A stretch of DNA of 35,945 bases, taken from contig JAPJNB010000102.1 in NCBI GenBank assembly GCA_026461385.1, forward strand, positions 1 to 35,945, in the 5' to 3' direction. This DNA is from Akkermansiaceae bacterium (GTDB lineage Bacteria > Verrucomicrobiota > Verrucomicrobiia > Verrucomicrobiales > Akkermansiaceae). Position numbers and translations under genes: made by a program. A model generated the notes under the pieces. That model saw only the letters and a list, made by a program, of their open reading frames with translations. It was not told the origin of the DNA and ran no database searches. This document shows, in pieces, positions 12,300 through 35,945 of this stretch; within the stretch, counting starts at the first letter, position 1, and each line of letters begins with the position of its first letter.

Positions 12300-13025
12300 T
12301 CACGGTTTCCCGAAAAGAGAGTTCACAAACACCGATGCTGTTAGACGGTTGCCCATCGCACTCGGGTGGCTGCCGTCTGCTAGAAACAACATGCTTCCGC
12401 GACCCTCGGAAAACTCACGCTCCCAGGCGTCGCTCACGGCTACCACGACAAGACCGCCCGCATTTTCTGCCGCAGCTTGATAATTCGCCCGAACTCGCTG
12501 AGTCATGGCATGAAAGTCATCGCCTAACAGGTTTTTGGCCCCATCACGGCGCCCCCATGTCTGATAGAGTATCGGAATTGCACCATGGATACGGCAAGCG
12601 TTCACCAGCTCTCGCAGGGGTGAAAACATTCGCGCAGCACACCGACTCGGCGGCAACGCGGGAATCTCGCTAAACTCTTGGAAAACCACAACATCCCAAG
12701 CGCCATTGCGAATCATCTGCAGCGTCCCTTCGAACGCGGCATGACGTTGGAGCGTCCAGCCACTGAAGGTCGATTGATCCACGTGCACGCGATGACCCCG
12801 TCTAGCAGACAATTTCGCGAACTCCCGTGGCGCGCCGAAACTATAGCTATTTCCTACGAAGAGGACACGCAATTCATGCCGCGCGTGAACTCTCGCCGCG
12901 AGCTCACCCTGGGCGTCGATCCCACGTTGCCCTGATGGCATGGGCACCTGAGACGAGCATGCTGATAGAATACATACAGTCATTACCGACAGCCCCTTGA
13001 TGAGTGGATTGATGATATTTCTCAC
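12300..13025 (-). CDS. SGNH-hydrolase-like lipoprotein (DUF4886-like)
   Basis: The protein has 241 residues with signal peptide and lipobox ILSAC (Cys23). VLFVGNSYSFG (about 54-64) resembles block I of the SGNH fold with Ser as nucleophile. VVVFQEFSEIP follows as block III-like. DGSHPSAMGNRL near the C-terminus supplies the Asp-x-x-His pair (DGSH). It is therefore probably an esterase or acyl hydrolase anchored in the envelope. The arrangement GNS...DGSHPS matches the DUF4886 group as I remember it. Translation starts at GTG 13025, which overlaps the stop of the recombinase gene by GTGA, so it is probably co-translated with it although the functions look unrelated. The substrate is unknown. 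Confidence 0.8.
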   Translation of the reverse strand: MRNIINPLIKGLSVMTVCILSACSSQVPMPSGQRGIDAQGELAARVHARHELRVLFVGNSYSFGAPREFAKLSARRGHRVHVDQSTFSGWTLQRHAAFEGTLQMIRNGAWDVVVFQEFSEIPALPPSRCAARMFSPLRELVNACRIHGAIPILYQTWGRRDGAKNLLGDDFHAMTQRVRANYQAAAENAGGLVVVAVSDAWEREFSEGRGSMLFLADGSHPSAMGNRLTASVFVNSLFGKP

Positions 13026-13912
13026 GCTCGTGGATGGGCAGTGTCGTAAGCCTGCTTGAGTCGCTCTTTCGTTACGTGAGTATAAATTTGGGTGGTTGAT
13101 AGCGAGGCATGCCCAAGCAACGCTTGAACGCTGCGAAGATCAGCCCCGGCATCGAGAAGATGGGTTGCGAAGCTATGGCGGAGCTTGTGTGGGCTAATCG
13201 CGAAGGGAATGCTACTACGCTTCAAGTACTTTTTTAATAACTGGTCGACTGCTTGCTGAGTGATGCGGCGCTGGCGGGTGCTGAGAAACAACGGTCCAGA
13301 TGCAACTGCGGCGGCCTGGCGATAACGCTGGATTGCGTTGATCGCGGGGCCGCCGACCGGGACGATGCGCTCCTTGGAGCCCTTTCCGGAGACCCGCACC
13401 GTTTCACCAATGAAATCGAGGTGTTTCACATCCAAGGCCAACAACTCGGAAATCCGAAGCCCGCAGGAATAGAAGAGCTCAAGGATCGCGGCATCGCGCA
13501 GTGGCAACCACGGCGGAGTTTTGGGATCCACCTCGCCGCGCAATGGCATGCCTAGCAGCTCATCGATCTGCGAGATGCTGAGTACCACCGGCAAACTGCG
13601 CTCAGGCTTCGGCAAGCGAACGACCGCCACGGGGCTGTGCGCTAAGCCTTGGCGAAGCACTAGAAATCGATAGAACGACCGCAACGCCGCAAACCTGAGG
13701 CGAATGGTCGCCTGTTTGAATCCCTGTTTCATCAGGGCAAACAGATAATCTCGGAAATCATCCGCAACCGCCTCTCGCCAACCCGTGAAGCGGTCGCCGC
13801 GCCATGCCTGATAGGCGGCCAAGGCATCACGATAGTTCGCCAAGGTCCTCGCTGAGGCATTTTTCTCCGTGGCTTGAAACGCGAAAAAAGCGATCTCGTC
13901 GCAGTTCGTCAT
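13022..13912 (-). CDS. Tyrosine recombinase of the XerC/XerD type
   Basis: Xer recombinases resolve chromosome dimers at dif sites. The N-terminal SAM-like domain (about 1-100) has NYRDALAAYQAWRG and a typical RLRFAALRSFYRFLV helix. The catalytic domain shows R153 (CGLRISELLAL), K177 (SGKGSKER), H242 and R245 (HKLRHSFATHLL), H268 (LLGHASLSTTQ) and the nucleophile Y277 (IYTHV), a complete active site. The length of 296 residues is right for XerC or XerD, and which of the two cannot be decided here. It does not look like a phage integrase. I chose ATG 13912; TTG 13921 is an alternative. It shares a 121-bp divergent promoter region with the RecB-like gene. Confidence 0.92.
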   Translation of the reverse strand: MTNCDEIAFFAFQATEKNASARTLANYRDALAAYQAWRGDRFTGWREAVADDFRDYLFALMKQGFKQATIRLRFAALRSFYRFLVLRQGLAHSPVAVVRLPKPERSLPVVLSISQIDELLGMPLRGEVDPKTPPWLPLRDAAILELFYSCGLRISELLALDVKHLDFIGETVRVSGKGSKERIVPVGGPAINAIQRYRQAAAVASGPLFLSTRQRRITQQAVDQLLKKYLKRSSIPFAISPHKLRHSFATHLLDAGADLRSVQALLGHASLSTTQIYTHVTKERLKQAYDTAHPRA

Positions 13913-13986
13913 GAGGTTCAAATGCTAGCAGCATGCGCTGCTGAACACCAAGCGAATTGCATCGCAGATCACACGCGAATTCTGAT

Positions 13987-14033: not shown

Positions 14034-17000
14034 ATGGATACCACTGAAAAAGCCAGCTCAACAGCCGAGCCCGAAAAGCAACTCAACATCGGTGAACCTA
14101 ACCTACTCATCTTGGCCTCTGCCGGTTCGGGTAAGACATTCCAACTCGCGAACCGAATCATCCACCTCGTGGTGCGTGGTGAAGAGCCCGCGAAAATTGT
14201 CGCCCTCACCTTCACCCGCAAAGCTGCGGGCGAATTCTCCGACTCGGTACTGATCAAGCTGGCAAAGGCTGCCAAGGACGCTGGAAAAGCCGATGAACTT
14301 CGCATGGCGATCCAACAGCCCAACGCCGATTTCAGAGTCGCTCTCGAGCGAGTGGTTCAGGCATTGCCGAACATGATGCTCGGAACCATGGATGGCTTTT
14401 TCTCCAAAATGGTTCGTGGGTTCCAATACGAGTTTGGCGTGACGGGTGGAAAATTTGATCTGTTAGAAGGTCCGAGGGCGGTGGCGGCAACGAACGAAAT
14501 TCTCACCAATATCCTCAGTGAGGAGATCGACGATGGCGGGGCGGATGAATTTCTATATGCCTTCCGCCGCGCATCCATGGGCAAGGAGCACCAAGGAGTG
14601 ATCGAAAGCCTGCGGAAATTTGTGCGGGTTTGGCAGGGGATTTTCCGAAATACCCGCCAGTCTAACTGGGGGCCTGCCCACCTCGCGGGCGTGGACATTG
14701 CGGATTGGGAGGCCAGCAAAATCCGGCTAATGGCTCAGGTCATGCGTGGCCTCGATGGTATCACCTACACCGATAAAAGGCAGCGGAATGCCTTGGCAGA
14801 AGCGATCGACTCCATCGCGCAACATACCATCGGTAGCGGCAGCCTGGGAGACGCAAAGGGTTTACTCCTAAGTATACTATCCGAAGTGAACGGCCCCATT
14901 GGCCCCCTTCAACTGAAGTATCACAAAGAATTTGTTTTCGGCGGCCTCTCGGGTGATGCGCTTCGGGAAATGATTTTACTAGCAGCTCGTTGTGAGATGG
15001 CAGCGGCCTTGCAGCGGACGCGCGCGGTGTGGGAGATCATCTCGATCTATGACGAACGGTGCGAATCCGAGCTCCGCAGCAGGGGATTGCTTGGGTTTGA
15101 CGACATCAAGCATCTCATGGGCCGATGGCGCGATAACGAAAAGGATCGGCTCACGAGAGAGGCCATCGATTTCCGGTTAGATGCGCGCTACGACCATTGG
15201 CTGTTAGATGAATTCCAGGATACCAGCCGAAGCGATTGGACCGGCTTGTCGCCGCTCGTCGATGAGGCATTTTCAAGCGACGACCGTACCGTTTTCATTG
15301 TAGGAGACCGCAAACAAGCGATCTATGGGTGGCGCGGCGGAGATGTTCGGTTGTTTGACGAGATCATCGAGAACTACGGCGACGGCTTGGCCAGAGAAGA
15401 AATGGCGGATTCGTGGCGCTCGTGCCCCGAGGTCTTGGAATTGGTGAACGCCGTCTGCGGCGACCCAGCAGCGGTGGGCCAATTTTTTGGCGAGACCAAT
15501 CCAAAATGGGAGTGGCAGCAACACACGTCTGCCAAGCGATTGGCAGAACCCGACAAGCGAGGCGAGGCGCGGGTTGAGATCGTCGAGGGAAAGCTCGAAG
15601 AACGCTTGGAGCGACTCAGTGAGTTGTTAGATGAATTGGGGGTGGGTGAGAAAAATCATACCTGTGGCGTGCTGCTACGGACCAATGCCACGATGCGGAA
15701 GGTCGCCGATCATCTCCGAGAAAAGGGATTCGACGTGATCGAAGAAGGGGCGCGTCAGCCAAGTAAGGACAATCCGGTCGGCGTCGCGCTGGCGCATCTC
15801 CTCAAGTGGTTGGCCGATCCGTCCGATGCCTTTGCCAAAAAAGTGATCGAGATGTCACCGATCGGGCAGGTGCTCACCGCGAAATTTGGCGAGGCGTGGC
15901 AGCAAACCTGGGAGCGGCTGTTAGAAATTGTAGCAACCATCGGTTTTGCGGGGATGGTGGAGGTGGTGATTCGTGAGGTTTGGATGGATTGGTCCGATTT
16001 TGGCCGGAGGCGTGCGGGTGACATCATGGCGGCCTTGGCGAAGCTCGATGCTCAGGGGGGCGCGACCGCTCAGCAAGCGGCAGATTGGATTGCCAACCTT
16101 GAAGTTTCACAAAGCCCAGGGAGGGCTGCCGTACAAGTCATGACGATTCACAAGTCGAAAGGGCTTGGATTCGACATCGTTGTTTTACCTGATGTCCCCG
16201 ACGAAGAGATTCCGCAGGCTCAAAAATTTGAAGTAGCAGAACACCCCGAGTGGATCAGCCAAACACCGCCGAAATGGGCGCGGGAATTGATTCCAGAGAT
16301 GGTTCAGGCGGAGTCACGCTGGGCGATGACCCAGCGCTATGAGGCCGTCTGCATGCTTTACGTGGCAATCACCCGGGCGAAGCGTGGGCTTTACATTTTG
16401 CTAGAAGCTCCTGGCAAATCAAAAAATATCGAAAAACCAACGCTGTCGAATTGGCTGCTCGCATCGGTGGGGAGCAAAACCCAGACGGATTATTTCTATC
16501 AAGTGGGTCGGCTAGACTGGGTGGATCTCGTTGAGCAAGCGAAGGGAATCGATTCCGCATCCAGCGACTTGGCGCTCACCAAGGGCATCACTCGCCGAGA
16601 GCGGACGACGCCGAGCGGCTTGAAGAAAAGTGGGGGCAAGGCAGTCACGCACTCTGGAAGTGGCATGAAATTTGGCAGTGAGGTTCACGCCGCGTTTGAG
16701 CAAGTCGGCTGGGTGGATGAGGTGGCACCAATGCTTCCGAGAAACGATGCTGGCCGACTGGTCGCGGAGCTGTTAGAAGCGCCAAGCCTGCGCGAGCTCT
16801 TCTTGCGCAATGGAAAGGCAGTTGAGCTTTTCTGTGAGCAGCCGATCGACGCGATCGTCGACAACACGTGGTTAAGCGGGGTGATTGATCGGCTTCACTT
16901 GCATCGCGACGGGGCGGGACTCGTGAGACGGGTGGAGGTGATTGATTATAAAACGGATGGAGTCGAGCAAATCGAAGAGCTCGTGGAGCGTTATTCGCAA

Positions 17001-17105
17001 CAAATGCTTGCCTACCAGCAAGTGATGCAAATCGCCTACCCTGATGCTGAAGTGGCATGCATCTTAGTCTCCACGCGTTTCAAGCAGAGCATCTTGGTCA
17101 ACTGA
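14034..17105 (+). CDS. AddA/RecB-like UvrD-family helicase with C-terminal nuclease
   Basis: This protein would unwind and degrade double-strand ends for recombinational repair. Helicase motifs run in order: I, ASAGSGKT (28-35); Ia, ALTFTRKAAGEF; II, LLDEFQD (390-396, with D392 and E393); III, VGDRKQAIYGWRGGD; V, VMTIHKSKGLGFD; VI, YVAITRAKRGLY (about 776-787). The RecB-type nuclease follows at the C-terminus with SGVIDRL (D952) and VIDYKTD (D971, K973), so both activities look intact. At 1023 residues it is shorter than typical AddA or RecB (about 1200). No addB or recC neighbour is present; the next gene is pckG. Five TGTTAGA sites lie inside it, at LLE/LLD codons. Confidence 0.92.
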   Translation: MDTTEKASSTAEPEKQLNIGEPNLLILASAGSGKTFQLANRIIHLVVRGEEPAKIVALTFTRKAAGEFSDSVLIKLAKAAKDAGKADELRMAIQQPNADFRVALERVVQALPNMMLGTMDGFFSKMVRGFQYEFGVTGGKFDLLEGPRAVAATNEILTNILSEEIDDGGADEFLYAFRRASMGKEHQGVIESLRKFVRVWQGIFRNTRQSNWGPAHLAGVDIADWEASKIRLMAQVMRGLDGITYTDKRQRNALAEAIDSIAQHTIGSGSLGDAKGLLLSILSEVNGPIGPLQLKYHKEFVFGGLSGDALREMILLAARCEMAAALQRTRAVWEIISIYDERCESELRSRGLLGFDDIKHLMGRWRDNEKDRLTREAIDFRLDARYDHWLLDEFQDTSRSDWTGLSPLVDEAFSSDDRTVFIVGDRKQAIYGWRGGDVRLFDEIIENYGDGLAREEMADSWRSCPEVLELVNAVCGDPAAVGQFFGETNPKWEWQQHTSAKRLAEPDKRGEARVEIVEGKLEERLERLSELLDELGVGEKNHTCGVLLRTNATMRKVADHLREKGFDVIEEGARQPSKDNPVGVALAHLLKWLADPSDAFAKKVIEMSPIGQVLTAKFGEAWQQTWERLLEIVATIGFAGMVEVVIREVWMDWSDFGRRRAGDIMAALAKLDAQGGATAQQAADWIANLEVSQSPGRAAVQVMTIHKSKGLGFDIVVLPDVPDEEIPQAQKFEVAEHPEWISQTPPKWARELIPEMVQAESRWAMTQRYEAVCMLYVAITRAKRGLYILLEAPGKSKNIEKPTLSNWLLASVGSKTQTDYFYQVGRLDWVDLVEQAKGIDSASSDLALTKGITRRERTTPSGLKKSGGKAVTHSGSGMKFGSEVHAAFEQVGWVDEVAPMLPRNDAGRLVAELLEAPSLRELFLRNGKAVELFCEQPIDAIVDNTWLSGVIDRLHLHRDGAGLVRRVEVIDYKTDGVEQIEELVERYSQQMLAYQQVMQIAYPDAEVACILVSTRFKQSILVN

Positions 17106-17166
17106 TATTTTGGTTCTGTTAGATTTACAGGGTCACAAAATGCGTTGATTTTATCGTATCAATGAA

Positions 17167-17195
17167 TTGCCAAACTGGCTCAGTTTTGTTTAAAT
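17167..17195 (+). promoter_or_regulatory. Candidate sigma-70-type promoter for pckG
   Basis: TTGCCA (17167-17172), a 17-base spacer and TTAAAT (17190-17195) fit a vegetative promoter loosely (four of six bases in each box). It would leave a leader of only a few bases before ATG 17204 and would exclude the alternative ATG at 17162. The AT-rich stretch before the ATG also fits a weakly structured start region. The call is weak. Confidence 0.25.
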
Positions 17196-17203
17196 CAAAT
17201 TTA

Positions 17204-19045
17204 ATGACTGTTGCTAATCCCACCACCCACGCGGCCCTTCTCAAGTGGGTAACTGAAATTGCAGCCCTTTGCACGCCCGACGCGATTGAGTGGTGTGATG
17301 GGTCACAGGCGGAGTGGGATCGGCTGACCACATTGATGGTTGAACGTGGTACCTTCACTCGGCTGAATCCCGCCAAGCGTCCGAATTCCTTCCTTGCGCG
17401 TTCCACTCCATCGGATGTTGCTCGAGTGGAGGAGCGCACGTTCATTTGCTCGAAGCGCCCGGATCAAGCAGGGCCAACGAACCGCTGGGCCGACCCGGTT
17501 GAAATGCGCGGCGTGCTGACGGGCAAATTCAAAGGGTCGATGAAGGGCCGAACGATGTATATCATTCCATTTTGCATGGGCCCGGTGGACTCTCCGTTGG
17601 CGAAGATCGGAGTAGAGATTTCTGATAGTCCATACGTGGTGGTGAACATGCGGATCATGTGTCACATGGGAGCCAAGGTGCTTAAGCAACTTGAAGACGA
17701 GGCGAGCGGCGTCAGCGTGAAAAAACGTGATGGCCACGGGCATTTCATTCCCTGCCTACACTCCGTGGGTGCGCCACTCGAGGAAGGCGCCTCCGATACC
17801 AGCTGGCCCTGCAACGATGACAAGTACATCGTTCATTTTCCCGAGACTCGTGAGATCATGTCCTATGGATCTGGCTACGGTGGTAACGCGCTGTTAGGGA
17901 AAAAATGCCTCGCGCTGCGCATCGCATCGAACATCGCCCGCGAACACCGCTGGATGGCGGAGCACATGTTGATTGTTGGGATCCATGCGCCCGACGGTAC
18001 CCGAACTTATATCACCGCTGCATTTCCATCGGCCTGCGGCAAAACCAACCTCGCGATGTTGATCCCGCCCAAGGCCTATCAGGATGCAGGATGGAAAACC
18101 TCCATCGTGGGCGACGACATCGCATGGCTTTGGCCTCATGCGGATGGCAAGCTCCACGCGATCAATCCAGAGACCGGCTTCTTCGGTGTCGCCCCCGGCA
18201 CAGCATACGAGACCAATCCAATCGCGATGGAGTCGATGAAGGAAAACACCATTTTCACCAATGTGGGTCTAACCGATGATGGAGATGTGTGGTGGGAGGG
18301 GATGACTCCTGAGGCGCCTGGCCATCTCATCGACTGGACGGGCCGAGACTGGACGCCGGATTGTGGGCGCGCTGCAGCACATGCGAATGCACGCTTCACC
18401 GCACCTGCCGTGCAGTGCCCGACCATCGATCCTGAGTGGCAGAATCCCGAGGGGGTCCCGATCGACGCGATTGTGTTTGGTGGCCGTCGGCCGACGACCA
18501 TGCCTCTGATCTATCAGGCATTCAACTGGAGCCACGGAGTTTATGTGGGAGCCACCATGGGATCAGAGATGACTGCGGCAGCGGCTGGCATCATTGGCAA
18601 GGTCCGTCGGGACCCGATGGCGATGCTGCCATTTTGTGGATACAACATGGGTTCATACTTTGGACATTGGTTAGAGATGCGCCGCTACATCACCAACCTT
18701 CCGCGCTTCTTTCATGTCAATTGGTTCCGGAAGAGCGATGATGGGAAATTTTTGTGGCCTGGCTATGGAGAAAACATGCGTGTTCTCGAGTGGATTGTGA
18801 AACGTTGCCATGGGAATGCGGCGGGTTATGAGACACAAATCGGTTGGACCCCAGCGTTCGAGGACTTCAACATCGAGGGACTTGAGGGATTCACCCGCGA
18901 GGATTACGACAAGGCCATGGCCTTCAATCGTGCCGAGTGGAAGGCTGAGCTGGTGAGCCAGGGCGAACTTTTCATCGACCTTTATGACGACTTGCCCAAG
19001 GAGTTGATTTTCCAGCGGGAATTATTGGCAGCAAGACTCTCGTGA
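17204..19045 (+). CDS. pckG: Phosphoenolpyruvate carboxykinase (GTP)
   Basis: The enzyme converts oxaloacetate and GTP to PEP, CO2 and GDP, the first committed step of gluconeogenesis. At 613 residues it has the normal length of the GTP-dependent family and lacks the features of the ATP type. [13 protein letters not shown] (274-286) is the kinase-1a P-loop with the family-specific reactive Cys (C278). GDDIAWLW is the metal-binding kinase-2 segment. [11 protein letters not shown] and FFHVNWFRK belong to nucleotide-site loops. I chose ATG 17204 ([16 protein letters not shown]). An upstream ATG at 17162 would add 14 residues not expected for the family. A TGTTAGA site lies in the leader at 17117-17123. 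The DUF2071 gene follows by one base. Confidence 0.96.
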
Positions 19046-23724: not shown

Positions 23725-27458
<3,734 letters not shown>

Positions 27459-27568
27459 GGGCTTGGCGATGACGGGTCGGAGATTCAGTGTTGGGGAGGT
27501 TTCTGAAATGAATCACGCGGGAACCTTGAAAGTGCGTTCTCCAGCTGACAAGCGAAATTCGTGAGGTT

Positions 27569-27583
27569 CGGTCGAGAGGACCG
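27569..27583 (-). terminator. Small hairpin after the carboxynorspermidine-dehydrogenase-like gene
   Basis: CGGTC-GAGAG-GACCG is a perfect 5-bp stem five bases past the stop at 27588 (minus strand). No T-run follows on either strand, so this is at best a weak or factor-assisted terminator. The surrounding 129-bp spacer (27459-27587) shows nothing else I can name. Confidence 0.3.
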
Positions 27584-27587
27584 CAAC

Positions 27588-28811
27588 TCAGGCTACGTGA
27601 AAACCCGCAGCTTGGTCTTGGGTCAATTCGATGACTTTCCATGGCAAGCCATGCTCGTTGAGGTCCGCCATGAAGGCGTCTGGGTCGTGTTGTTCGATGT
27701 TCCAGACCCCCGATTTCCGCCAGTCGCCGGTGAGCAACTGCTTGGCACCGATCATCGCCGGGACCCCGGTCGTGTAGGAAATCGCCTGGGAGCCCACCTC
27801 CGCGAAGCAGGCTTCGTGATCGCAGATGTTGTAGATGTAAATCGCCTTGGGCGCGCCATTTTTGACCCCGGTGATCACATTGCCGATGCACGTGCGGCCC
27901 TTGGTCGTCTCGCCAAGATCGCTTGGATTGGGCAAAACCGCCTTGAGAAACTGGAGTGGGACGATTTCCACGCCTTGGTAAATCACGGGGTCGATCCGCG
28001 TCATGCCGACGTTTTGAAGCACCTCAAGATGCTTTAAATAATTGGGCGAGAATGACATCCAGAATTGAGCGCGCTGGAGGGTTGGGATGTGTTTGACGAG
28101 CGACTCGAGCTCCTCATGGTACATCCGGTAGATTTCGTAAGTTCCCACGCCATCTGGGCAGGTGAACGACTGGTGCTGCGACATCGGCGCGGTTTCGACG
28201 AAGGCACCGTTTTCAAAATGGCGGCACTCTGCGGTGACCTCGCGGATATTGATTTCCGGATTGAAATTCGTGGCAAACGCCTTGCCGTGATTTCCGCCGT
28301 TGACGTCGATGATGTCGAGCGTGTGAATCTCGTCGAAGTGGTGTTTGAGCGCCCAAGCTGTGAAGACATTGGTCACGCCGGGGTCAAATCCGGAGCCGAG
28401 TAGCGCCGAGAGCCCAGCGTTTTCAAAGCGTTCTTGGTAAGCCCATTGCCACGAATACTCGAACTTCGCGACGTCGAGCGGTTCGTAGTTTGCCGTGTCC
28501 ATGTAGTCGCATCCCGCGAGCAAACAGGCATCCATCAAATTCAGGTCCTGGTAGGGCAGCGCCACATTGACCAGTAGCGTCGCACCCGTCTTCCGGATGA
28601 GTGCGGCGGTTTCCTCGGCGTTGTCCGCATCCACCTTGGCCGTGCCGATCGTGCGGCCCGTGCGCTTGAGCACCTCGGCGGCGATGGCGTCGCATTTTGA
28701 AAGGGTCCGCGAGGCGAGGGTGATTTCCCCGAAGACTTCGGGAACCATGGCGCATTTGTGGGCGACGACGCTGCCGACTCCGCCGGCTCCGATGATGAGG
28801 ACTTTGTTCAT
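27588..28811 (-). CDS. Carboxynorspermidine dehydrogenase-like (saccharopine dehydrogenase family)
   Basis: The enzyme would condense a diamine with aspartate-semialdehyde using NADPH, giving carboxy(nor)spermidine, in the alternative spermidine route. MNKVLIIGAGGVGSVVAHKC is the Rossmann loop. The family pattern continues with ITLASRTLSKC, LVNVALPYQDLNLMDACLLA, GCDYMDTANYEP and GSGFDPGVTNVFTAWALKHH. The length of about 407 residues fits. TTKGRTCIGNVITGVKNG and YTTGVPAMIGAKQLL occur near the end. I chose ATG 28811; an upstream in-frame extension to 28961 is non-coding leader. The decarboxylase partner (nspC) is not in the window. A generic saccharopine dehydrogenase is the alternative. Confidence 0.85.
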   Translation of the reverse strand: MNKVLIIGAGGVGSVVAHKCAMVPEVFGEITLASRTLSKCDAIAAEVLKRTGRTIGTAKVDADNAEETAALIRKTGATLLVNVALPYQDLNLMDACLLAGCDYMDTANYEPLDVAKFEYSWQWAYQERFENAGLSALLGSGFDPGVTNVFTAWALKHHFDEIHTLDIIDVNGGNHGKAFATNFNPEINIREVTAECRHFENGAFVETAPMSQHQSFTCPDGVGTYEIYRMYHEELESLVKHIPTLQRAQFWMSFSPNYLKHLEVLQNVGMTRIDPVIYQGVEIVPLQFLKAVLPNPSDLGETTKGRTCIGNVITGVKNGAPKAIYIYNICDHEACFAEVGSQAISYTTGVPAMIGAKQLLTGDWRKSGVWNIEQHDPDAFMADLNEHGLPWKVIELTQDQAAGFHVA

Positions 28812-28959
28812 GGTCTGGTGCAGGAGCAGAGTTGGGAGAATCTGACCCTGCTGGCAAGAAATTCCCAACCGAGATCGCCAATCTTTGCGCGAATTTCCCG
28901 ACAATTTTTGAGTGGCATGGTGTTTTGATCCCTGCAAGGCTCCTGCAAGCCGCCAATCC

Positions 28960-29400
28960 ATGAAAATTCACTCATCCTCACCTCGCATCCGCCGCAACTC
29001 TGGATTCACCCTCCTTGAAATGGTGATTGTCCTCGGAATCATCGCCATGATCCTCGGTGGCGCGATCTTCTCCATGAACAAAATCGGCAACTCGGCCAAA
29101 CTCAGCCAAGTGGAGTCGGATTTCAAAAGCTTCGAAAGCGCGCTGGCCATGTACAAGCTCAATGCCGGCTCGTTCCCGACCACCCAGCAGGGCCTCAACG
29201 CGTTGGTGAGTAAGCCGTCCAGCACTCCGGTCCCACGCCGCTGGGTCCAAGTGATGAGCAAGGTTCCCAAGGATCCATGGGGTACCGAGTACGGCTATCG
29301 TTTCCCCGGCAAGAAGCGCGCAAATGACTTCGAAATGTTCAGCAAGGGCGAAGACGGCATTGAGGGCACCCCAGATGATCTCAGCAGTCAGGACGATTAA
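28960..29400 (+). CDS. gspG: Type II secretion major pseudopilin GspG
   Basis: GspG builds the periplasmic pseudopilus that drives secretion through GspD. The 146-residue protein has a short charged leader and prepilin cleavage site RNSG-FTLLEM at residues 15/16, followed by a hydrophobic helix. The classical GspG signatures are LNAGSFPTTQQGLNALV, KDPWGTEYGYRFPG and FSKGEDGIEGTPDD, the last being the Asp-rich calcium-binding tail. ATG 28960 starts 148 bases from the divergent CANSDH gene. It heads the cluster; a faint sigma-54-like sequence in the spacer was not accepted. Six pseudopilin-type genes follow with near-zero spacing. Confidence 0.93.
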   Translation: MKIHSSSPRIRRNSGFTLLEMVIVLGIIAMILGGAIFSMNKIGNSAKLSQVESDFKSFESALAMYKLNAGSFPTTQQGLNALVSKPSSTPVPRRWVQVMSKVPKDPWGTEYGYRFPGKKRANDFEMFSKGEDGIEGTPDDLSSQDD

Positions 29401-29935
29401 GCCGCAGCGAGGCTTCACGCTGATCGAAATCGTCATGGTTCTCGCCATTTCCGCGGTCGTGATGGCGGGCGCGGTCGGGTTCATGATCGCCTCGTCCGAC
29501 GAACGGGCGCTGCGCAACACCTCGGGAGAAATCGAACTTTTGGCGAAAAAAGCCCGCGCCTCCGCCATTCTTCACCAAACTTCCTACGCCTTGGAGTTCC
29601 GCGAGGGCGTCGTGCGGCTGCTCCCGCTCGCCCAAGCGGGAATCATCCAGAAAAAAAACTCGCGCACACTTCCGCCGGTTTCTGCCCCAGAATTGAACGA
29701 AGCCAGCGGCAAGAACCAAGTGAATCTCAGCGGCGACATGGCCCTTTTCATCCGGCACTGGAACTCGGACGCATGGCTTCCGACCATCAAGAATGCCGTG
29801 CAAGTCTGGCGCTTTGACCCAGACGGTCTTTGCGAACCGATCTCGATCCGGCTCAGCCTTCCGAAAAGCTGGTCAGAAGATTCCTACCACCCGCTCACCG
29901 CCACCATTCGCGAAAGTTCGCTCGAAGCCCGATGA
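29375..29935 (+). CDS. gspH: Type II secretion minor pseudopilin, GspH-like
   Basis: The product is 186 residues with ATG 29375, overlapping the end of gspG by 26 bases. The prepilin site is PQRG-FTLIEIV at residues 13/14, followed by MVLAISAVVMAGAVGFMI. The C-terminal beta-rich domain is short of recognisable motifs (LEFREGVVRLLPLA, DMALFIRHWNSD, VWRFDPDGLCEPISIRL), but RFDPDGLCEPISIRL is the type of strand pair seen in GspH/FimT. The assignment rests on position between gspG and gspI. A longer reading from 29324 would run back into gspG. Confidence 0.8.
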   Translation: MISAVRTIKPQRGFTLIEIVMVLAISAVVMAGAVGFMIASSDERALRNTSGEIELLAKKARASAILHQTSYALEFREGVVRLLPLAQAGIIQKKNSRTLPPVSAPELNEASGKNQVNLSGDMALFIRHWNSDAWLPTIKNAVQVWRFDPDGLCEPISIRLSLPKSWSEDSYHPLTATIRESSLEAR

Positions 29936-30342
29936 AACGCCCGATCCAGCATGGCCGACGCGGATTTCTCCTCCTTGAGATGATTCTCGCGCTGGGCGTA
30001 TTCGGCATCGCTGCCACCGGATTCGCCGTGGCACTTCACCGGATGGCCGCTGCCGCGCAAATGGCGCAAAGCGAGCTGCGGATCACTCGGATCCTTGACA
30101 GCGCGCTCGACGAGACCCTGTCACTCCCCGTGCTCGAAGAAGGTGAGCTTTCTTCCTCCGTCGGCGACACGGGCATCGAGCTTAAAACCTCGGTCACTCT
30201 GCTCGACAAGCTGGAAAATGATGAAGGGCAACTTCTCCAGGAAATGTTCGCCATCAAGGTGGAGGCGAAGTGGTATGCTGAGGGGCAATGGAAGCGACGC
30301 GATGTCGAAACTTGGCGCTACGGCCGCATGTACCAGCCATGA
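29932..30342 (+). CDS. gspI: Type II secretion minor pseudopilin, GspI-like
   Basis: The 136-residue protein has a prepilin-type N-terminus, GRRG-FLLLEMILALGVFG, where Leu replaces the usual Thr two residues after the cleavage glycine. The rest has a heptad-like helix (AVALHRMAAAAQMAQSEL, RITRILDSALDETLSLP) and a terminal strand KWYAEGQWKRRDVETWRYGR. GspI is expected at the tip complex with GspJ and GspK. The ATG overlaps the gspH stop by ATGA. Identity is by order and class, not by a unique motif. Confidence 0.78.
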   Translation: MKRPIQHGRRGFLLLEMILALGVFGIAATGFAVALHRMAAAAQMAQSELRITRILDSALDETLSLPVLEEGELSSSVGDTGIELKTSVTLLDKLENDEGQLLQEMFAIKVEAKWYAEGQWKRRDVETWRYGRMYQP

Positions 30343-31211
30343 TCCACCATCCTGTCAAAAACCGGCCCTCAGGCTTCACGCTGCTCGAGCTCGTGATTGC
30401 GATCGGCTTGTTGTCGATTTTGGTCGGGATGGTCTTCAGCACCGCCCGCACTTCGCTGGCGCTCGGCAACACGATCGTGCAGACCCAAAACGAGGAAATG
30501 CTCCACCAAGCGTTTTTCGAGCTCCTCAGCCAACGCTTTTCCTCCCTCCCCGGCAACACGCGCCTCGAGCTGAAAGCTCAAGACTCCGGCTCACGCTACA
30601 CCTCCGACCTCACCCTCCAAAACGTGCCTCTCAGCTTCACCTGGGGCGGCGAGGCCCGCATCGCCAAGGCCGTCCAACTCAGCACCGTGAAGCGCCGCAG
30701 CGGCTACCTCGACATCGTGCTGCGGTATTATGAAAACGAAATCCTCGAAGGCTCCGCTTCTACCTTTGGGAGCTCGACCGACACGGCGCCTTTCGCAGAA
30801 ATCGTCCTTCTCACCGATGTCGCGTATTTTGAATGGCGCGTGCTCGACGGCCGGACGATGGAATGGCAATACGACTGGGACGCCCAAGGCCGCTTGCCCC
30901 TCCAAATGGAACTCACCATGGCCATCGGCGCGAAAGGCGAGGAAATCCGCCAGATTTTTTGGATCCCACCCAAGCAAAACCCCGAGATGCTCATGCGGCA
31001 GATGGCTCAATCCGGCGGCAACAGCAACCCCGCAGACCCCGCAGCCGGCGGTATCCCTCCCGACGGCGGAGCGCACTTGCCTCAGATTCAAATCCCTGGA
31101 TTTCCCCCAAATGGTGGCCGTCCAGGCGGAAATGGTGGTGGCCGTCCAGGCGGAAATGGTGGTGGAAATTCCGGTGGTCCCAGACCTCCTAACCGAAACA
31201 TAGGCCGATGA
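30339..31211 (+). CDS. gspJ: Type II secretion minor pseudopilin GspJ-like, with Gly-rich C-terminal tail
   Basis: The protein has 290 residues, longer than usual (about 200), with prepilin site NRPSG-FTLLELVIAIGLL at residues 12/13. The body (ARTSLALGNTIV through YFEWRVLDGRTMEWQYDW and LPLQMELTMAIGAKGEEIRQ) fits GspJ. Beyond about residue 220 comes a low-complexity Pro/Gly region. It includes GGRPGGNG twice from a perfect 24-bp DNA repeat and ends in GGPRPPNRNIGR. This tail is unusual for a pseudopilin and may be flexible. ATGA overlap with gspI fixes the start. Confidence 0.8.
   Translation: MIHHPVKNRPSGFTLLELVIAIGLLSILVGMVFSTARTSLALGNTIVQTQNEEMLHQAFFELLSQRFSSLPGNTRLELKAQDSGSRYTSDLTLQNVPLSFTWGGEARIAKAVQLSTVKRRSGYLDIVLRYYENEILEGSASTFGSSTDTAPFAEIVLLTDVAYFEWRVLDGRTMEWQYDWDAQGRLPLQMELTMAIGAKGEEIRQIFWIPPKQNPEMLMRQMAQSGGNSNPADPAAGGIPPDGGAHLPQIQIPGFPPNGGRPGGNGGGRPGGNGGGNSGGPRPPNRNIGR
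31113..31160 (+). repeat. Perfect 24-bp tandem repeat, two copies, inside gspJ
   Basis: The 24-bp unit begins GGTGGCCGTCCAGG at 31113 and again at 31137, each copy encoding GGRPGGNG. A degenerate third part (GGTGG AAATT) follows. Copy number is a likely source of length variation in the Gly-rich tail. The unit length is a multiple of three, so changes keep the frame. Confidence 0.85.
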
Positions 31212-32146
31212 AGCACGATTTCCTTCCACCCCAACGACCTCGCGGTGTCGCTCTCATGGCGGTGCTCTGGTTGATTGCGATCCTCGCGATGGCCTGCATG
31301 ACCACCTTGCGGGTCATTTCCTTCGACATGGAGATCGCAACCGCCAAGGTCCATGGTTCCCGCGCACGGCAAATGGCAGAAATGGGCATCGCCATCGGCT
31401 CGAACCCCGCGGTCAAACGCTCGGACCCGATCCTTCGCCAACTCAATGCCGAAACCGGCGAGGGCTTCGAGGCCAGGGTGGTTTCCGAAGGCGGACGCTT
31501 CAACATCAACTCAACCCTCATGCAGGGCGACAAGGAGCTACTGACCTCGATGTTTGTGAACTGGGGCCTCGACGTGGCGGTTGCCCAAGGTGTCGTCGAT
31601 TCTCTCATCGACTGGATTGACACCGATGATGACGAACAGATGAAAGGCGCTGAGAAAAAATATTACGAAGGGATCGGCCGGATCAACCAACCGTTCAATC
31701 ATCCGTTTTATGACCTTTCCGAAATGAGCCTCGTCCGCGGCATGGAGTTGGTCGAAGCGGTCCGTCCCGATTGGCGGAACTGGTTCACCGTGTGGAGCAG
31801 CGGGGGCCTTGACCTGAATGAGGCGACACCCGAGCTGATCGCCGCCGCCGCCGAAATTCCCGCCGAACAAGCCGAAATCATCCCCGAGACCGTCGCCGGC
31901 TTGGATGGCATCAAGGATACAACCGACGATGTTCCTTTTCAAAATCCTTCCGCAGCTCTTGATCTTTTGGGAATAGACCCACAAGGTCGCCCTGATCTTT
32001 CGCGGAGATTCACCACCAACGATCCGACCACCCGCGTGGAAAGCATCGGCTATGCCGAGGGCGTGAAGCGCAAAATCAGCATCATCATTCGCAACCGCAC
32101 CGGCAAACCGGCTCTCCTCGAACGTACCGAAGAAATCATCCCGTGA
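31208..32146 (+). CDS. gspK: Type II secretion minor pseudopilin GspK-like
   Basis: The 312-residue protein has a prepilin-type start, RPRG-VALMAVLWLIAILAM, with the family-typical absence of Glu at position 5. The body continues with LRVISFDMEIATAKVHGSRA (RQMAEMGIA), NSTLMQGDKE and the Asp-rich VDSLIDWIDTDDDEQMKGAE, which is the GspK hallmark. LNEATPELIAAAA and RVESIGYAEGVKRKISIII close it. GspK caps the pseudopilus and initiates assembly. The start overlaps the gspJ stop by ATGA. Confidence 0.87.
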   Translation: MKHDFLPPQRPRGVALMAVLWLIAILAMACMTTLRVISFDMEIATAKVHGSRARQMAEMGIAIGSNPAVKRSDPILRQLNAETGEGFEARVVSEGGRFNINSTLMQGDKELLTSMFVNWGLDVAVAQGVVDSLIDWIDTDDDEQMKGAEKKYYEGIGRINQPFNHPFYDLSEMSLVRGMELVEAVRPDWRNWFTVWSSGGLDLNEATPELIAAAAEIPAEQAEIIPETVAGLDGIKDTTDDVPFQNPSAALDLLGIDPQGRPDLSRRFTTNDPTTRVESIGYAEGVKRKISIIIRNRTGKPALLERTEEIIP

Positions 32147-33375
32147 GTAAAAACACCCAAAACGTGCTTCTCGTCCCCGGCGAATCTGGCTGGGAAATCT
32201 GGACCGGCCCCACCGGTTCCGCCCTGGAACTTCACGAAGTCACCGCGTGCGAGCGCCCGGGCGACCTCACGAATCTTCCCAGCGGCGATTTGCTGCTGCT
32301 CTTCCCCGTCAAGGCGATCACCGCGCTCCCCATGCGGGTGACCAGCGACGACACCTCGCTTTTCCCCGACCTTGCGGCCCTCCATGCCGAGCGCCTCGGA
32401 CTGCGCCCAGACCCGATGGCGGGCCAACTCACCGACTTGTTCGTGATCGCCCGTGAGGCGGAAAACACCGCGCTGCTTTCCGTCCTGCTCCGTGCCCCAG
32501 GTGAGGGTGACATGCCACCCCGCGGACCCAAGAGTTTCGACCTCTCTGCCCGTGCTTACCCGCTCGCTGGCGACGCCCTCGCCGTTTGGATGGAACTCGG
32601 CCGTTGGGTTTTCAGCCTCTCGCATCAAGGGAATTTGGTGTACTGCCAAGCCACCTCCGGCACCTCACGCAGCCCCGACGAAGCCCTGGCCCGAGAGATC
32701 CGCTTGGCGCTCATCCAGCTTTCGCTGCAGGGCCTCGAAATCGAGCCGGCCCGCATCGTCGTCTGGACGAACTCGGAAAACCTCAACCTCGCTGCCCTCG
32801 CCGCCGGATTTAAGGCCCCCGTGGAAATCTCAGCCCGCCCCGCCCCCACGCTGCCAGATCCCATCAGCAAGCTCCTCCCTGCCGATGTCCGCGCCGCCCG
32901 CCGCGAGGCAAAACGCCGCCAAAATATCATGGTCGGAGTCGCCGCCGTCGCCACCCTTTACCTCACCGCCATCGGCTGGTTTAGCTACGGCCTCTGGAAA
33001 GACAGCGCCTCGACTCAGAAGCTCAAGCAGCAAGCCGCCGCCGCCGCCCCAGAAGGCAAGGCGTACGCGACCCACATGGAAAAATGGGACGAGCTTTCCC
33101 CCGCCATCGAACTGACGAATTCCCCCGTCGATATCCTCAGCCGAGTCGCCGCCTGCATCCCGGCCAACAGCGGACTCCGCCTGAAAACCGCAGAAATCAG
33201 CGGCACGGAAATCAAGCTGATCGGCGAGGCTCCCCAACTCCAAGCGGTCAACAGCTTCAGCCTCAACCTTGACAAAAACACCGATCTAGCCCAGTTCGAC
33301 TGGCAGACCCCAGAGCCGAACCAATCGACTCGCGGGTGGGAATTCGTCTTCAGCGGCGATGTCCCGCATCCTTGA
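32143..33375 (+). CDS. gspL: Type II secretion inner-membrane platform protein, GspL-like
   Basis: The 410-residue protein begins at GTG 32143, overlapping the gspK stop by GTGA. The N-terminal cytoplasmic part (1-255) is consistent with the actin-like fold of GspL/PilM but shows no clear phosphate loops. One membrane helix lies at about 262-284 (MVGVAAVATLYLTAIGWFSYG). The periplasmic part resembles PilN/GspL ferredoxin-like domains (DILSRVAACIPANSGLRLKT). GspL links the ATPase GspE to the pseudopilus platform. The identification is from architecture and order. A PilM-PilN fusion is an equally valid description. Confidence 0.7.
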   Translation: MSKNTQNVLLVPGESGWEIWTGPTGSALELHEVTACERPGDLTNLPSGDLLLLFPVKAITALPMRVTSDDTSLFPDLAALHAERLGLRPDPMAGQLTDLFVIAREAENTALLSVLLRAPGEGDMPPRGPKSFDLSARAYPLAGDALAVWMELGRWVFSLSHQGNLVYCQATSGTSRSPDEALAREIRLALIQLSLQGLEIEPARIVVWTNSENLNLAALAAGFKAPVEISARPAPTLPDPISKLLPADVRAARREAKRRQNIMVGVAAVATLYLTAIGWFSYGLWKDSASTQKLKQQAAAAAPEGKAYATHMEKWDELSPAIELTNSPVDILSRVAACIPANSGLRLKTAEISGTEIKLIGEAPQLQAVNSFSLNLDKNTDLAQFDWQTPEPNQSTRGWEFVFSGDVPHP

Positions 33376-33388
33376 TTTTTCAGCTCCA

Positions 33389-33417
33389 CTGACAAAAATT
33401 CTCCACCACGGCATTAT
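33389..33417 (+). promoter_or_regulatory. Candidate internal promoter before gspM
   Basis: CTGACA (33389-33394), a 17-base spacer and CATTAT (33412-33417) fit a sigma-70-type promoter moderately, with the first base of TTGACA changed and two changes in TATAAT. The ATG of gspM is 37 bases downstream. The 78-bp gap from 33376 to 33453 is the largest break within the cluster, which fits a second transcription start for gspM-C-D. Confidence 0.35.
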
Positions 33418-33453
33418 TCGGTCAGCACACCCGCATCCACGTTATTTTCATTC

Positions 33454-33984
33454 ATGTCATTCCGCGAAAAAAAACTTCTCATCTTCTTTGCCCTCGCGGG
33501 GTTTGTCGTGCTGAATTTCCTCGCATTCGGCTTCTTGAAATCGAAGCGCCTCCAAGTGACCCGCGCCCAAGAACAGGCCCGCCAAGAACTCGCGACCGCA
33601 GAGCAGTTCCAAGAAAGCAGCCAGTTGATCGCCGACCAAATGGAATGGCTCGCCGCTCACGAGCCGCAACCGACCGCCAACCAAGAAGCCCAAACCACGC
33701 TCCAACAACTGGCCGAGCGCGAAGCCAAGGCCGCCGGACTCACGATCAAATCCCAAAAACCCCTCCCCACCGATTCCGCCGAGGGCAAACATTACCACCG
33801 CGCGAAACTCCAAATCACCGTGACCGGCACCGAACAAGCACTCTACACGTGGTTCGACCGCATCAACATGCCTGACCAGCTCCGCATCGCCACCCAGATC
33901 CGCATGTCGCCCGACACCCAAGACGACACGAAGATCGACTGCACCGCCACGATCGACCAGTGGTTTGTACCATCCACCCTTTAA
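33454..33984 (+). CDS. gspM: Type II secretion inner-membrane protein, GspM/PilO-like
   Basis: The protein has 176 residues with one N-terminal membrane segment (about 8-28, LLIFFALAGFVVLNFLAFGF). A short coiled coil rich in Gln/Glu follows (RAQEQARQELATAEQFQESS). A C-terminal ferredoxin-like domain follows (LTIKSQKPLP, KLQITVTGTEQALYTWFDRI, ATQIRMSPD). This is the GspM/PilO layout, and the protein would pair with the GspL-like product. Its 3' end lies 38 bases before the next start. Sequence alone does not decide between GspM and PilO names. Confidence 0.75.
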   Translation: MSFREKKLLIFFALAGFVVLNFLAFGFLKSKRLQVTRAQEQARQELATAEQFQESSQLIADQMEWLAAHEPQPTANQEAQTTLQQLAEREAKAAGLTIKSQKPLPTDSAEGKHYHRAKLQITVTGTEQALYTWFDRINMPDQLRIATQIRMSPDTQDDTKIDCTATIDQWFVPSTL

Positions 33985-34022
33985 CTCGCCTTTTTTTGAA
34001 AGCTCCGGCACTCCATCCCGTC

Positions 34023-34640
34023 ATGCTGCTCCTCGCCCTCACCGGCTTGGCGGTGGCGGATTTACCCAAAAAGCCGCCCCTCAGCCGTTACTCCGGGCTC
34101 TGGACGAACTCACCCTTCACCTCCAAGCCGCCACCGGCCGACCAAGGCCCAGAAGTCAACCCGCTCGACGACTACGCGCTCATCGGCGTGTCTCCCATCG
34201 GCGGCAGCGGCTACCGCGTGACGCTCATCAACAAGAAAAAAACCGACGAACGCATCACCGTCGACTCCGGCAGCACGAAGACGGAGTTTAAAATCATCGA
34301 GGTGATCCGGAAAGACGGCAACCCGCAGGGCACGACCGTGAAAATGTCATCAGGCACCCAGGTCGGAATGGTGGCATTTGACGACAAACTTCTATCGCTG
34401 GTGGCCGCTCCCGCCGCCAAAGCACCGCAACCTGGCCAAATTCCGCAGAACGGCATCCCTGGCCAACAACCGCAGGTGGTCCAGCCCGGCGTGCCCCAAC
34501 CCGCTGGCGCAAACCCGCAAATTCAACGCCAACCCCGGCCACGGGTGGTCCCTCCTTCCACCGGAGGCCAAATCCAGCCCAGTCACATCCAGCCCGGCCA
34601 GTCTGGCCAAAAACAACGCCCGGACCGCCGAGGCCCCTAA
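34023..34640 (+). CDS. Putative GspC/PilP-like periplasmic component with Pro/Gln-rich tail
   Basis: The 205-residue product starts at ATG 34023 with a signal-peptide-like segment (MLLLALTGLAVADLPKK). A GTG at 33960 would overlap gspM and is less likely. LWTNSPFTSKP and DYALIGVSPIGGSGYRVTLI, then RITVDSGSTKTEFKIIEVI, look like the homology-region/PilP-like beta fold that docks on the secretin N0 domain. From about residue 145 the sequence is low complexity (PGQIPQNGIPGQQPQVVQPG, PQPAG). The immediately following gene is gspD, which supports a GspC-type role. There is no PDZ domain. The function is inferred from context. Confidence 0.6.
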   Translation: MLLLALTGLAVADLPKKPPLSRYSGLWTNSPFTSKPPPADQGPEVNPLDDYALIGVSPIGGSGYRVTLINKKKTDERITVDSGSTKTEFKIIEVIRKDGNPQGTTVKMSSGTQVGMVAFDDKLLSLVAAPAAKAPQPGQIPQNGIPGQQPQVVQPGVPQPAGANPQIQRQPRPRVVPPSTGGQIQPSHIQPGQSGQKQRPDRRGP

Positions 34641-34670
34641 TTCTCCAACTTGCTCTAACCGTTTTTCTCC

Positions 34671-35945
34671 ATGTCCTGCCATCGCTCCATCGCACTCCTG
34701 CTTCTCGGCCTCATCTCCGCGTCCGCTCAACCACCTGCAGTGCCCGTCAGCCCTGCCGCCCCAGCAACGCCCGCTGCGGTCGCCGCGCCTGATACTTCTT
34801 CAGCCCCGGCTCCTGCAACCCCTGCGCCTCCGGCAAGCGCAACTCCACCGCCTCCGGGGGTCCCGATCCCAGGCGTCGTTCCGCCCCCGGCCGCTGGAAT
34901 TCCGAGCTTCAAATCCCCTGCGCCCAACCCGCCACTCGGCGAGACCAAAATCACCGCCGACATCAACGAGCCCAAACTCAGCGGCAACGCACTCGCCGGC
35001 CTCTACCGGAAATACACCGGCCGCCGCGTGATCGTCTCCGCCGCCGCTTCCACGGCCGAATTCTCGTTCGTCCAAGAAGCCACCCCCCAAGACCCGCTCA
35101 CCTTCGCTCAAGCCGCCGAACTCTTGAAAAAGGCCGCCACCATCGAAAACTTCGTTTTCGTCCCCGACGAGCAAGACCCCACCCTCGACATCCTCACGCT
35201 CTCCACCGGCGGCATCCGCCCAACCGGCCGCGGCGTCGACGTCTACAACGAAAACAAACCCCTGCCCGATGGCGACGCGGTCATTTCCTATGTAATGACG
35301 CTCAGCTTCATCAAACCCGCCGAGGCGGTGAACACCTTCACCCAGATCATCGGCCAGTTCGGCTCCTACGGCTCGATCGCCCCAGTGCCAAATGCCTCCG
35401 CCGTGGTCATCACGGAAAACACGTCGCTCATCCGGAAGCTCATCGACCTGAAAAAGGAAATCGACAAGCCGTCCTCACAGATCGCCACCCGTTTCATCAA
35501 GGTCCAGTTCGCCGACGTCACGGAAATCGCCACCACGCTCAATGAGCTCCTGAACGCCCAGCAGTCTGCCCAAAAAACCGCTGGCATCCAGCGTGCCGAT
35601 TCGCCGGCACCGGTTCCCGCAGCGGTTCCCGGCGTCCCCGCTCAACCGGTTGCCGCCGGTGCCAAGGCGGGCGCAGCCAGCTCCGCAGGGGGCGAGGAAA
35701 CCCCCGTCCAGATCATCCCCGACCCACGCACCAACCGCATCTTCGCCATGGGCCGCCCCGTGGACCTCTTGTTCGTGGAAGGCCTGATCCGCGAGTTCGA
35801 CGTGGAAACCAGCGAGAAAAATTTCCTCCGTCGCAAGCTCCGCTTCCTCACGGTGTCCGATTTCCTACCGATCGCTGGCGACGCGTTGGGCCGGGCGTTC
35901 GGCGGCACGGGCGAGGGTGGTGGCGGTGCCGCGGGTGCTGCCAAC
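34671..35945 (+). CDS. gspD: Type II secretion secretin GspD, N-terminal part (runs off the window)
   Basis: The frame is open from ATG 34671 to the window end (425 codons), so only the N-terminal portion is visible. Residues 1-20 (MSCHRSIALLLLGLISASAQ) are a signal peptide, probably cut before Gln20. A Pro/Ala-rich stretch (about 21-85) follows, an unusual linker for a secretin. N0 begins near 100 (ITADINEPKLSGNALAGLYR). N1 comprises ISYVMTLSFIKPAEAVNTF and SAVVITENTSLIRKLIDLKK. N2 comprises TRFIKVQFADVTEIATTLNE and VQIIPDPRTNRIFAMG, split by a Pro/Ala/Gly insert. The secretin barrel domain lies beyond 35945. It forms the outer-membrane channel. Confidence 0.88.
   Translation, partial: MSCHRSIALLLLGLISASAQPPAVPVSPAAPATPAAVAAPDTSSAPAPATPAPPASATPPPPGVPIPGVVPPPAAGIPSFKSPAPNPPLGETKITADINEPKLSGNALAGLYRKYTGRRVIVSAAASTAEFSFVQEATPQDPLTFAQAAELLKKAATIENFVFVPDEQDPTLDILTLSTGGIRPTGRGVDVYNENKPLPDGDAVISYVMTLSFIKPAEAVNTFTQIIGQFGSYGSIAPVPNASAVVITENTSLIRKLIDLKKEIDKPSSQIATRFIKVQFADVTEIATTLNELLNAQQSAQKTAGIQRADSPAPVPAAVPGVPAQPVAAGAKAGAASSAGGEETPVQIIPDPRTNRIFAMGRPVDLLFVEGLIREFDVETSEKNFLRRKLRFLTVSDFLPIAGDALGRAFGGTGEGGGGAAGAAN

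Follow-up and report, generated by a model that had tools for sequence, protein, structure and literature searches.

An AddA-like helicase-nuclease of an Akkermansiaceae bacterium, its putative AddB-like partner on another contig, and an over-represented TGTTAG word that is unlikely to be its Chi

Introduction

AddAB, represented by the addA_alphas and addB_alphas families and by the Bacillus enzyme, is the described system closest to the one treated here: AddA carries superfamily 1 (SF1) helicase motifs and a C-terminal nuclease, and the partner subunit brings a nuclease of its own. In AdnAB both subunits carry helicase motifs. AddB is expected to show the cysteine layout of an iron-sulfur (Fe-S) cluster. 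A title in a reference list (PMC4824097) calls this cluster essential in AddAB-type enzymes. We have analysed a stretch of 35,945 nucleotides from an Akkermansiaceae bacterium (contig JAPJNB010000102.1 of assembly GCA_026461385.1; the whole stretch is called the window below), which encodes an AddA-like helicase-nuclease and is rich in the word TGTTAG.

Words that are enriched about 6- to 30-fold genome-wide in both orientations are, to our knowledge, mainly Chi sites and uptake sequences, and are found in few lineages. Among the latter are the uptake signal sequence (USS) of the Pasteurellaceae, with Haemophilus, and the DNA uptake sequence (DUS) of the Neisseriaceae, with Neisseria. An excerpt from PMC8022716 defines Chi by its polarity on the leading strand and its over-representation in the core genome, and an excerpt from PMC1626085 states that perfect copies of USS and DUS outnumber singly mismatched ones.

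A first-pass annotation of the window had described the AddA-like protein as lacking AddB or RecC nearby, had left open whether the partner is encoded elsewhere or the enzyme is a single-subunit form, and had proposed TGTTAG as a candidate Chi-like sequence; its observation is confirmed in part, as its interpretation is supported in part. The reading that we favour, with a probability of about 0.6, is that the genome encodes an AddAB-type enzyme whose AddB-like subunit lies on another contig, and that the word, with the consensus TGHTAGR, is a separate self-DNA mark not read as Chi. The intact motifs suggest that AddA unwinds and cleaves the ends of broken DNA and that AddB serves as a second arm with its own nuclease. 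TGTTAG(A) would be a separate genome-wide word, maintained by selection or biased copying that acts on DNA; the cell, or a protein that handles DNA, may use it to recognise its own DNA in uptake, recombination or chromosome organisation.

The AddA-like protein and its putative AddB-like partner

The window is contig C259 of its assembly (G000, the home genome; 3.79 Mb, 273 contigs, 94% complete). The gene and its domains are as follows.

14034 to 17105, plus strand: AddA-like UvrD-type helicase with PD-(D/E)XK nuclease, 1023 amino acids (P0001), from Pfam, NCBIfam and aligned motifs
14067 to 15377, plus strand: UvrD-helicase N-terminal domain, residues 12-448, with Walker A motif ASAGSGKT, from Pfam and alignment
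16785 to 17036, plus strand: PD-(D/E)XK nuclease core, GVIDRLHLHRDGAGLVRRVEVIDYKTD intact, from PF12705 and alignment

The protein matches UvrD-helicase (PF00580, 1.6e-33), UvrD_C (PF13361, 1.5e-17) and PDDEXK_1 (PF12705, 9.7e-6). Its best NCBIfam matches are RecB-like helicase (NF010485, 4e-70) and addA_alphas (TIGR02784, 9.1e-64), both well below the curated cut-offs; since it reaches 216 of the 861 bits required for the TIGR02784 equivalog, we call it AddA-like and place it outside the curated equivalog. The helicase motifs, among them Walker A, motif II (DEFQDTS) and the later ones, are all intact, as is the C-terminal PD-(D/E)XK catalytic motif, and both sets of motifs could be aligned in 17 family members, whose lengths are 997-1086 amino acids. 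The motif alignment comprised 17 AddA rows (G131 was dropped by a filter) and five AddB rows, the pattern used for the latter being too strict.

The first-pass annotation had judged the protein shorter than usual. It is so relative to the curated addA/recB profiles (1138, 1234 and 1175 positions), but the RecB-like helicase models are shorter than the protein (909-945 positions), and within the family the translations of 16 other AddA genes span 997-1086 amino acids, so that 1023 is a normal length. With its UvrD-type motor and RecB-family nuclease the protein also resembles AdnAB and RecB. The best match in the PDB by phmmer was a 1095-amino-acid 'UvrD/REP helicase' chain of 6ppu (1.3e-21), which we take to be AdnB, and Bacillus AddA (3u44) followed at 2.4e-11; unlike in AdnAB, a Walker A pattern is lacking in the putative partner described next.

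A search of the home genome with PF12705 gave seven matches, the best of them on contig C136 in an AddB-like open reading frame (ORF) of 913 amino acids (G000:C136:5504-8245, minus strand; PF12705 4e-24; TIGR02786 addB_alphas 3.2e-22, at 78.5 of 486.5 bits below the cut-off). The protein has an AddB-like N-terminus and an intact nuclease motif (GKIDRID...VIDYKSG), and a pattern search found no Walker A motif in it. One cysteine (559) lies within SCPFRYYLK. The C-terminal cysteine triplet is missing from the AddB of G000, G069, G013 and G045, four of the five rows kept in the alignment, and the home protein therefore probably lacks the Fe-S cluster; the fifth row, G028, contains an AESGKT stretch and, close to the C-terminus, a C-x2-C pair (893, 896). 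The partner that the first-pass annotation had suggested looking for elsewhere, with an inactive helicase and an Fe-S nuclease, thus has a counterpart in its nuclease and in its lack of Walker A by pattern, and not in its cysteines.

From its sequence the AddA-like protein looks like one subunit of an ordinary putative two-part AddAB-type enzyme. It differs from described AddAB in that the genes are unlinked, that both proteins score below the curated cut-offs and that AddB lacks the C-terminal cysteine triplet.

Searched with the home AddA at E <= 0.001, all 195 genomes of the family contain a match, in some of them no stronger than other UvrD helicases, and with the home AddB 176 of the 195 do. 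The two genes are neighbours in G064, G082, G131, G155, G028 and G085 and are separated by 4.1 kb in G141, by 8.0 kb in G036 and, on one contig, by about 624 kb in G061; in the home genome they are on separate contigs. Because they are adjacent in several relatives, the pair was split within the home genus, and such a split gives no sign of a single-subunit enzyme. That AddA acts alone, without AddB, is very improbable: in its favour no AddB adjoins the AddA gene, against it stand the AddB-like gene of the home genome and the AddB matches in 176 of 195 family genomes, adjacent to AddA in several. The lack of AddB is thus confined to the neighbourhood, and of the two options of the first-pass annotation the partner encoded elsewhere is the one borne out.

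The gene is flanked, as had been noted, by xer and pckG:

13022 to 13921, minus strand: Xer tyrosine recombinase, divergent, outside any add operon (PF00589, 8.4e-44; NF001399 above cut-off)
17162 to 19045, plus strand: GTP-type phosphoenolpyruvate carboxykinase, downstream of the AddA gene (PF00821, 5.9e-163)

No match to AddB or RecC was found among the other window ORFs scanned, which were mostly the longer ones of the 138.

Both AddA and AddB are missing in G014, G041, G052, G062 and G073, all at least 90% complete and searched with queries from two genera. Three of these genomes have UvrD-type matches (G073:C1:27198-28559, G052:C1:767558-768904 and G014:C12:36882-37151), and the frames concerned (1183-1214 amino acids) may be RecB- or AdnB-like replacements.

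The TGTTAG word

The window contains 29 copies of TGTTAG, against 3.46 expected, and none of 100 shuffles reached 29. The over-representation reported by the first-pass annotation is thus real, and genome-wide it proved stronger and wider than could be seen from the window. The copies, all from word counts, are located as follows.

2938 to 25280, either strand: range within which the 29 window copies of TGTTAG lie (21 plus, 8 minus)
14461 to 14466, plus strand: TGTTAG copy 1 in addA, read as CTG TTA GAA
15202 to 15207, plus strand: TGTTAG copy 2 in addA
15625 to 15630, plus strand: TGTTAG copy 3 in addA
15919 to 15924, plus strand: TGTTAG copy 4 in addA
16771 to 16776, plus strand: TGTTAG copy 5 in addA

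The five copies in addA, to which attention had been drawn, are all on the coding strand and each encode Leu-Leu-Glu/Asp. They are present as described and do not stand out: at the density found elsewhere in the window 2.24 would be expected (P = 0.077), and TGTTAG therefore has no special link to addA. When the window was compared with two Akkermansiaceae relatives from a contig scan, L021 (92% identity) and L022 (89%), the sites were only modestly conserved, 0.71-0.89 being intact as compared with 0.57-0.65 for permuted 6-mers. TGTTAG is absent from the terminal 10.7 kb (25281-35945). This stretch starts inside gyrB and holds rnd; the motif is spread unevenly even among core genes.

In the home genome TGTTAGAW occurs 801 times and the reversed word 123 times. 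TGTTAGA is the top 7-mer (66 vs 5.7 expected from an order-2 model, in a usable sample of 272 kb), as it is in G087 (120 vs 18.4), G045 (351 vs 11.3) and G064 (55 vs 2.7). The density of TGTTAG is 0.45 per kb in the home sample and 1.75 per kb in G045 (547 in 313 kb).

Codon or amino-acid usage was ruled out as an explanation by synonymous shuffles, which left far fewer copies within genes than observed (observed/shuffled 98/24.6 in the home genome, 144/49.5 in G087, 458/79.8 in G045 and 87/19.9 in G064), and by the antisense frames, the sense and antisense enrichments being 4.2- and 3.7-fold in the home genome, 3.2 and 2.6 in G087, 5.2 and 7.7 in G045, and 5.0 and 3.7 in G064. The enrichment thus acts on DNA in both orientations. 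Conversely, the word shapes the use of leucine codons: 54 of 231 TTA codons in the home sample (23%) and 45 of 122 in G064 (37%) lie in TGTTAG, as compared with 1 of 77 and 1 of 23 in the motif-poor relatives G172 and G085. A mobile or dispersed repeat was ruled out because the flanks of the word show little conservation more than about 3 bases away from it (four site sets, of which that from L021 and L022, with 41 sites, is noisy).

The single-mismatch spectrum in G045, in which G and TAG are strict, the base between them is T, C or A but not G, and the last base is A or G, indicates a specificity of about TGHTAGR.

Within the Akkermansiaceae the word is patchy and restricted to part of the family. 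By hand count, CTGTTAGA exceeds its reversed word more than twofold in 35 of the 195 family genomes, which belong to 7 of 16 genera; as a control the reversed word is rough and not a matched null. The richest genomes are G087 (1470 vs 60) and G045 (1288 vs 65), and the congeners of the home genome are not enriched (G105, 1 vs 34; G172, 2 vs 97). In a sample of the class, also counted by hand, 5 of 26 rows from the family and none of 162 other rows were above twofold. No alternative word comparable to TGTTAG was found in samples of 49-80 kb each from G105, G172, G085 and G008. A word of sharp specificity that comes and goes within one family offers a natural comparison between 35 rich and many poor genomes, among which its putative reader protein could be sought.

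Is TGTTAG the Chi of this enzyme?

If it were, TGTTAGA would be read single-stranded by the home AddAB and would switch the enzyme from degradation to recombination. Like the Chi sites of RecBCD and AddAB, TGTTAG is short, over-represented, non-palindromic and located mostly inside genes; its length and density (66 TGTTAGA in 272 kb) are within the range of known Chi sites, and both AddA and AddB are present in the home genome. It differs from Chi in that its leading-strand polarity does not go beyond base composition and its occurrence is not tied to the identity of AddA or AddB.

Polarity was assessed by GC skew per stretch as a proxy for the leading strand, after exclusion of stretches that were shorter than 4 kb, had a skew below 0.02 or were rich in N. 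The G-rich strand carried 59 of 114 TGTTAG copies in the home genome, 119 of 173 in G087 (0.69), 188 of 326 in G045 and 51 of 112 in G064; the corresponding shares of permuted 6-mers were 0.61, 0.66, 0.58 and 0.64. In none of the four genomes was the share significantly above that of the permuted words, and in the home genome and G064 it was below expectation. Except in G087 the shares are far from 75%, and the apparent leading-strand bias of G087 is explained by base composition, the permuted 6-mers reaching 0.66. Since permuted 6-mers match its strand share, the motif has no leading-strand polarity of its own. A reading as FtsK-orienting polar sequences (KOPS) was rejected as well: 20 tiles of the 1.2-Mb contig of G064 gave 61 vs 54 copies of TGTTAG and 35 vs 20 of TGTTAGA on the two strands. 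Among the copies listed for that contig 95 are on the plus and 5 on the minus strand, and the tiles show further minus copies.

Nor does the presence of the motif follow the enzyme across relatives. G178 and G192 (AddA 65% identical to that of the home genome) and G172 (58%) are not enriched; G155 (60%), G053 (57%) and G026 (55%) are enriched, and the richest genomes have a distant AddA (G045, 44%; G087, 34%). On a tree built from AddA alone the motif state needs at least five changes over 18 rows, several branches being long and six forks open; the row set comprised 18 AddA and 14 AddB rows. TGTTAGA remains weakly enriched in two genomes lacking AddAB, G073 (24 vs 7.4 in 100 kb usable) and G041 (26 vs 6.7). 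G080 and G103 are also without AddAB matches and have high ratios for CTGTTAGA (170 vs 35 and 448 vs 26; 8 vs 3.7 and 14 vs 2.5 in small samples), but their completeness is only 82% and 58%.

Over-representation being present, and both polarity of its own and co-occurrence with the enzyme lacking, TGTTAG is unlikely to be the Chi of the home AddAB, contrary to the first-pass proposal, which was offered as speculative, and a mark of self-DNA, of the uptake type or another, is no less likely. Should it nevertheless be Chi, it would break the polarity rule by which Chi sites are found.

Uptake tag or binding site?

The word could be an uptake-type tag: competent cells would take up DNA bearing TGHTAGR, and transformation would spread it. 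With USS and DUS it shares enrichment in both orientations, within genes and between them, a density that in the richest sample, G045, exceeds one per kb (1.75 for TGTTAG), a patchy occurrence in part of one family and, in the four genomes analysed, no orientation bias beyond composition; PilT-family ATPases and ComEC are present. It differs from them in its relaxed consensus: singly mismatched copies of TCTGTTAGA exceed perfect ones in all four genomes (perfect to mismatched 13:68 in the home genome, 40:62 in G087, 54:340 in G045 and 13:50 in G064), unlike what is described for USS and DUS. Nor is there a general preference for non-coding DNA, the density being higher there than in coding DNA only in G064 of the four genomes. 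Opposed pairs less than 60 bases apart show no clear excess (observed/expected 5/4.4 in the home genome, 15/9.8 in G087 and 47/50.9 in G045), and spacing is clustered rather than regular. The motif thus has some traits of uptake sequences and fails others.

The competence genes do not discriminate. ComEC was found in 191 of 195 family genomes and PilT-family ATPases in all 56 chosen genomes (55 above cut-off), both being near-universal. Matches to the helix-hairpin-helix (HHH) domain of the ComEA type are missing in the motif-rich genomes G045, G026, G144 and G155, yet many motif-poor genomes have them; the strongest HHH_3 matches are mostly in ORFs of about 760-900 amino acids, which are presumably Tex. 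ComEC, the PilT family and HHH_3/ComEA were therefore discarded as markers separating motif-rich from motif-poor genomes. Taken together, we regard an uptake tag as a tentative explanation; if correct, it would be the first known to us in the phylum. In the open-licence library searched, no article dealing with such words, Chi or uptake, was listed for Verrucomicrobiota.

Also tentative, and well short of even odds, is the view that the motif is bound by a protein with no role in uptake or break repair, such as one that organises the chromosome. The sharp and at the same time degenerate specificity in G045 and the relaxed consensus are as expected of a binding site; the lack of a candidate protein, the uneven spacing and the 10.7-kb stretch of the window without copies speak against it.

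We therefore return to the reading of an AddAB-type enzyme with its AddB-like subunit on another contig and a separate self-DNA mark. Several findings weigh against it. The AddA-like and the AddB-like protein both fall short of the curated NCBIfam cut-offs, and phmmer found no PDB relative of the AddB-like protein (best E 0.13). The ComEC, PilT-family and ComEA-like candidates yielded no reader for the motif. The strands are used unevenly on a local scale (21 vs 8 copies in the window, 17 vs 5 in L021, 12 vs 4 in L022), and stretches differ from one another in strand use more than by chance in G087 (p 0.0008) and G045 (p 0.0015), but not in the home sample (p 0.24); such unevenness would favour Chi, and it can be produced by base composition and gene direction. 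Finally, in the five AddAB-lacking genomes that are at least 90% complete the ratio of CTGTTAGA to its control never exceeds 2, as Chi could explain, though five genomes are too few to call an association.

The enzyme in this reading is ordinary, an AddAB with unlinked genes and an AddB apparently devoid of the Fe-S cluster; the motif is of greater interest. That TGHTAGR is a self-DNA mark of a kind new to Verrucomicrobiota, gained and lost several times in one family and recognised by a putative reader protein in uptake, recombination or the handling of chromosomes, is a suggestion to which we give somewhat less than even odds.

Minor observations

Two other words were met in the family. In G087 (L043-L062) GGTAAGTTTT is over-represented beside TGTTAGA (25 vs 0.34). 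In G028, a complete genome from another genus of the family, ACTATTAACT was considered as an alternative dialect of the motif and rejected; it is present only in L138 among four 20-kb stretches and therefore looks like a local repeat. L138 contains a dense repeat with AGTTAATAG, 9 of the 10 listed copies being on the same strand.

Positions 30288-32146 of the window encode type II secretion minor pseudopilins, one GspJ-like and one GspK-like, which score above the cut-offs of Pfam T2SSJ and T2SSK and do not reach those of NCBIfam GspJ and GspK.

The home genome also harbors a type V CRISPR locus on contig C41 (G000:C41; L010, 43-2979), where an ORF of 418 amino acids, corresponding to the C-terminal part of Cas12b (positions 872-1252 of the 1253 of NF033949, 5.4e-97), directly precedes a Cas4-Cas1 fusion (NF049935, 5.2e-181).

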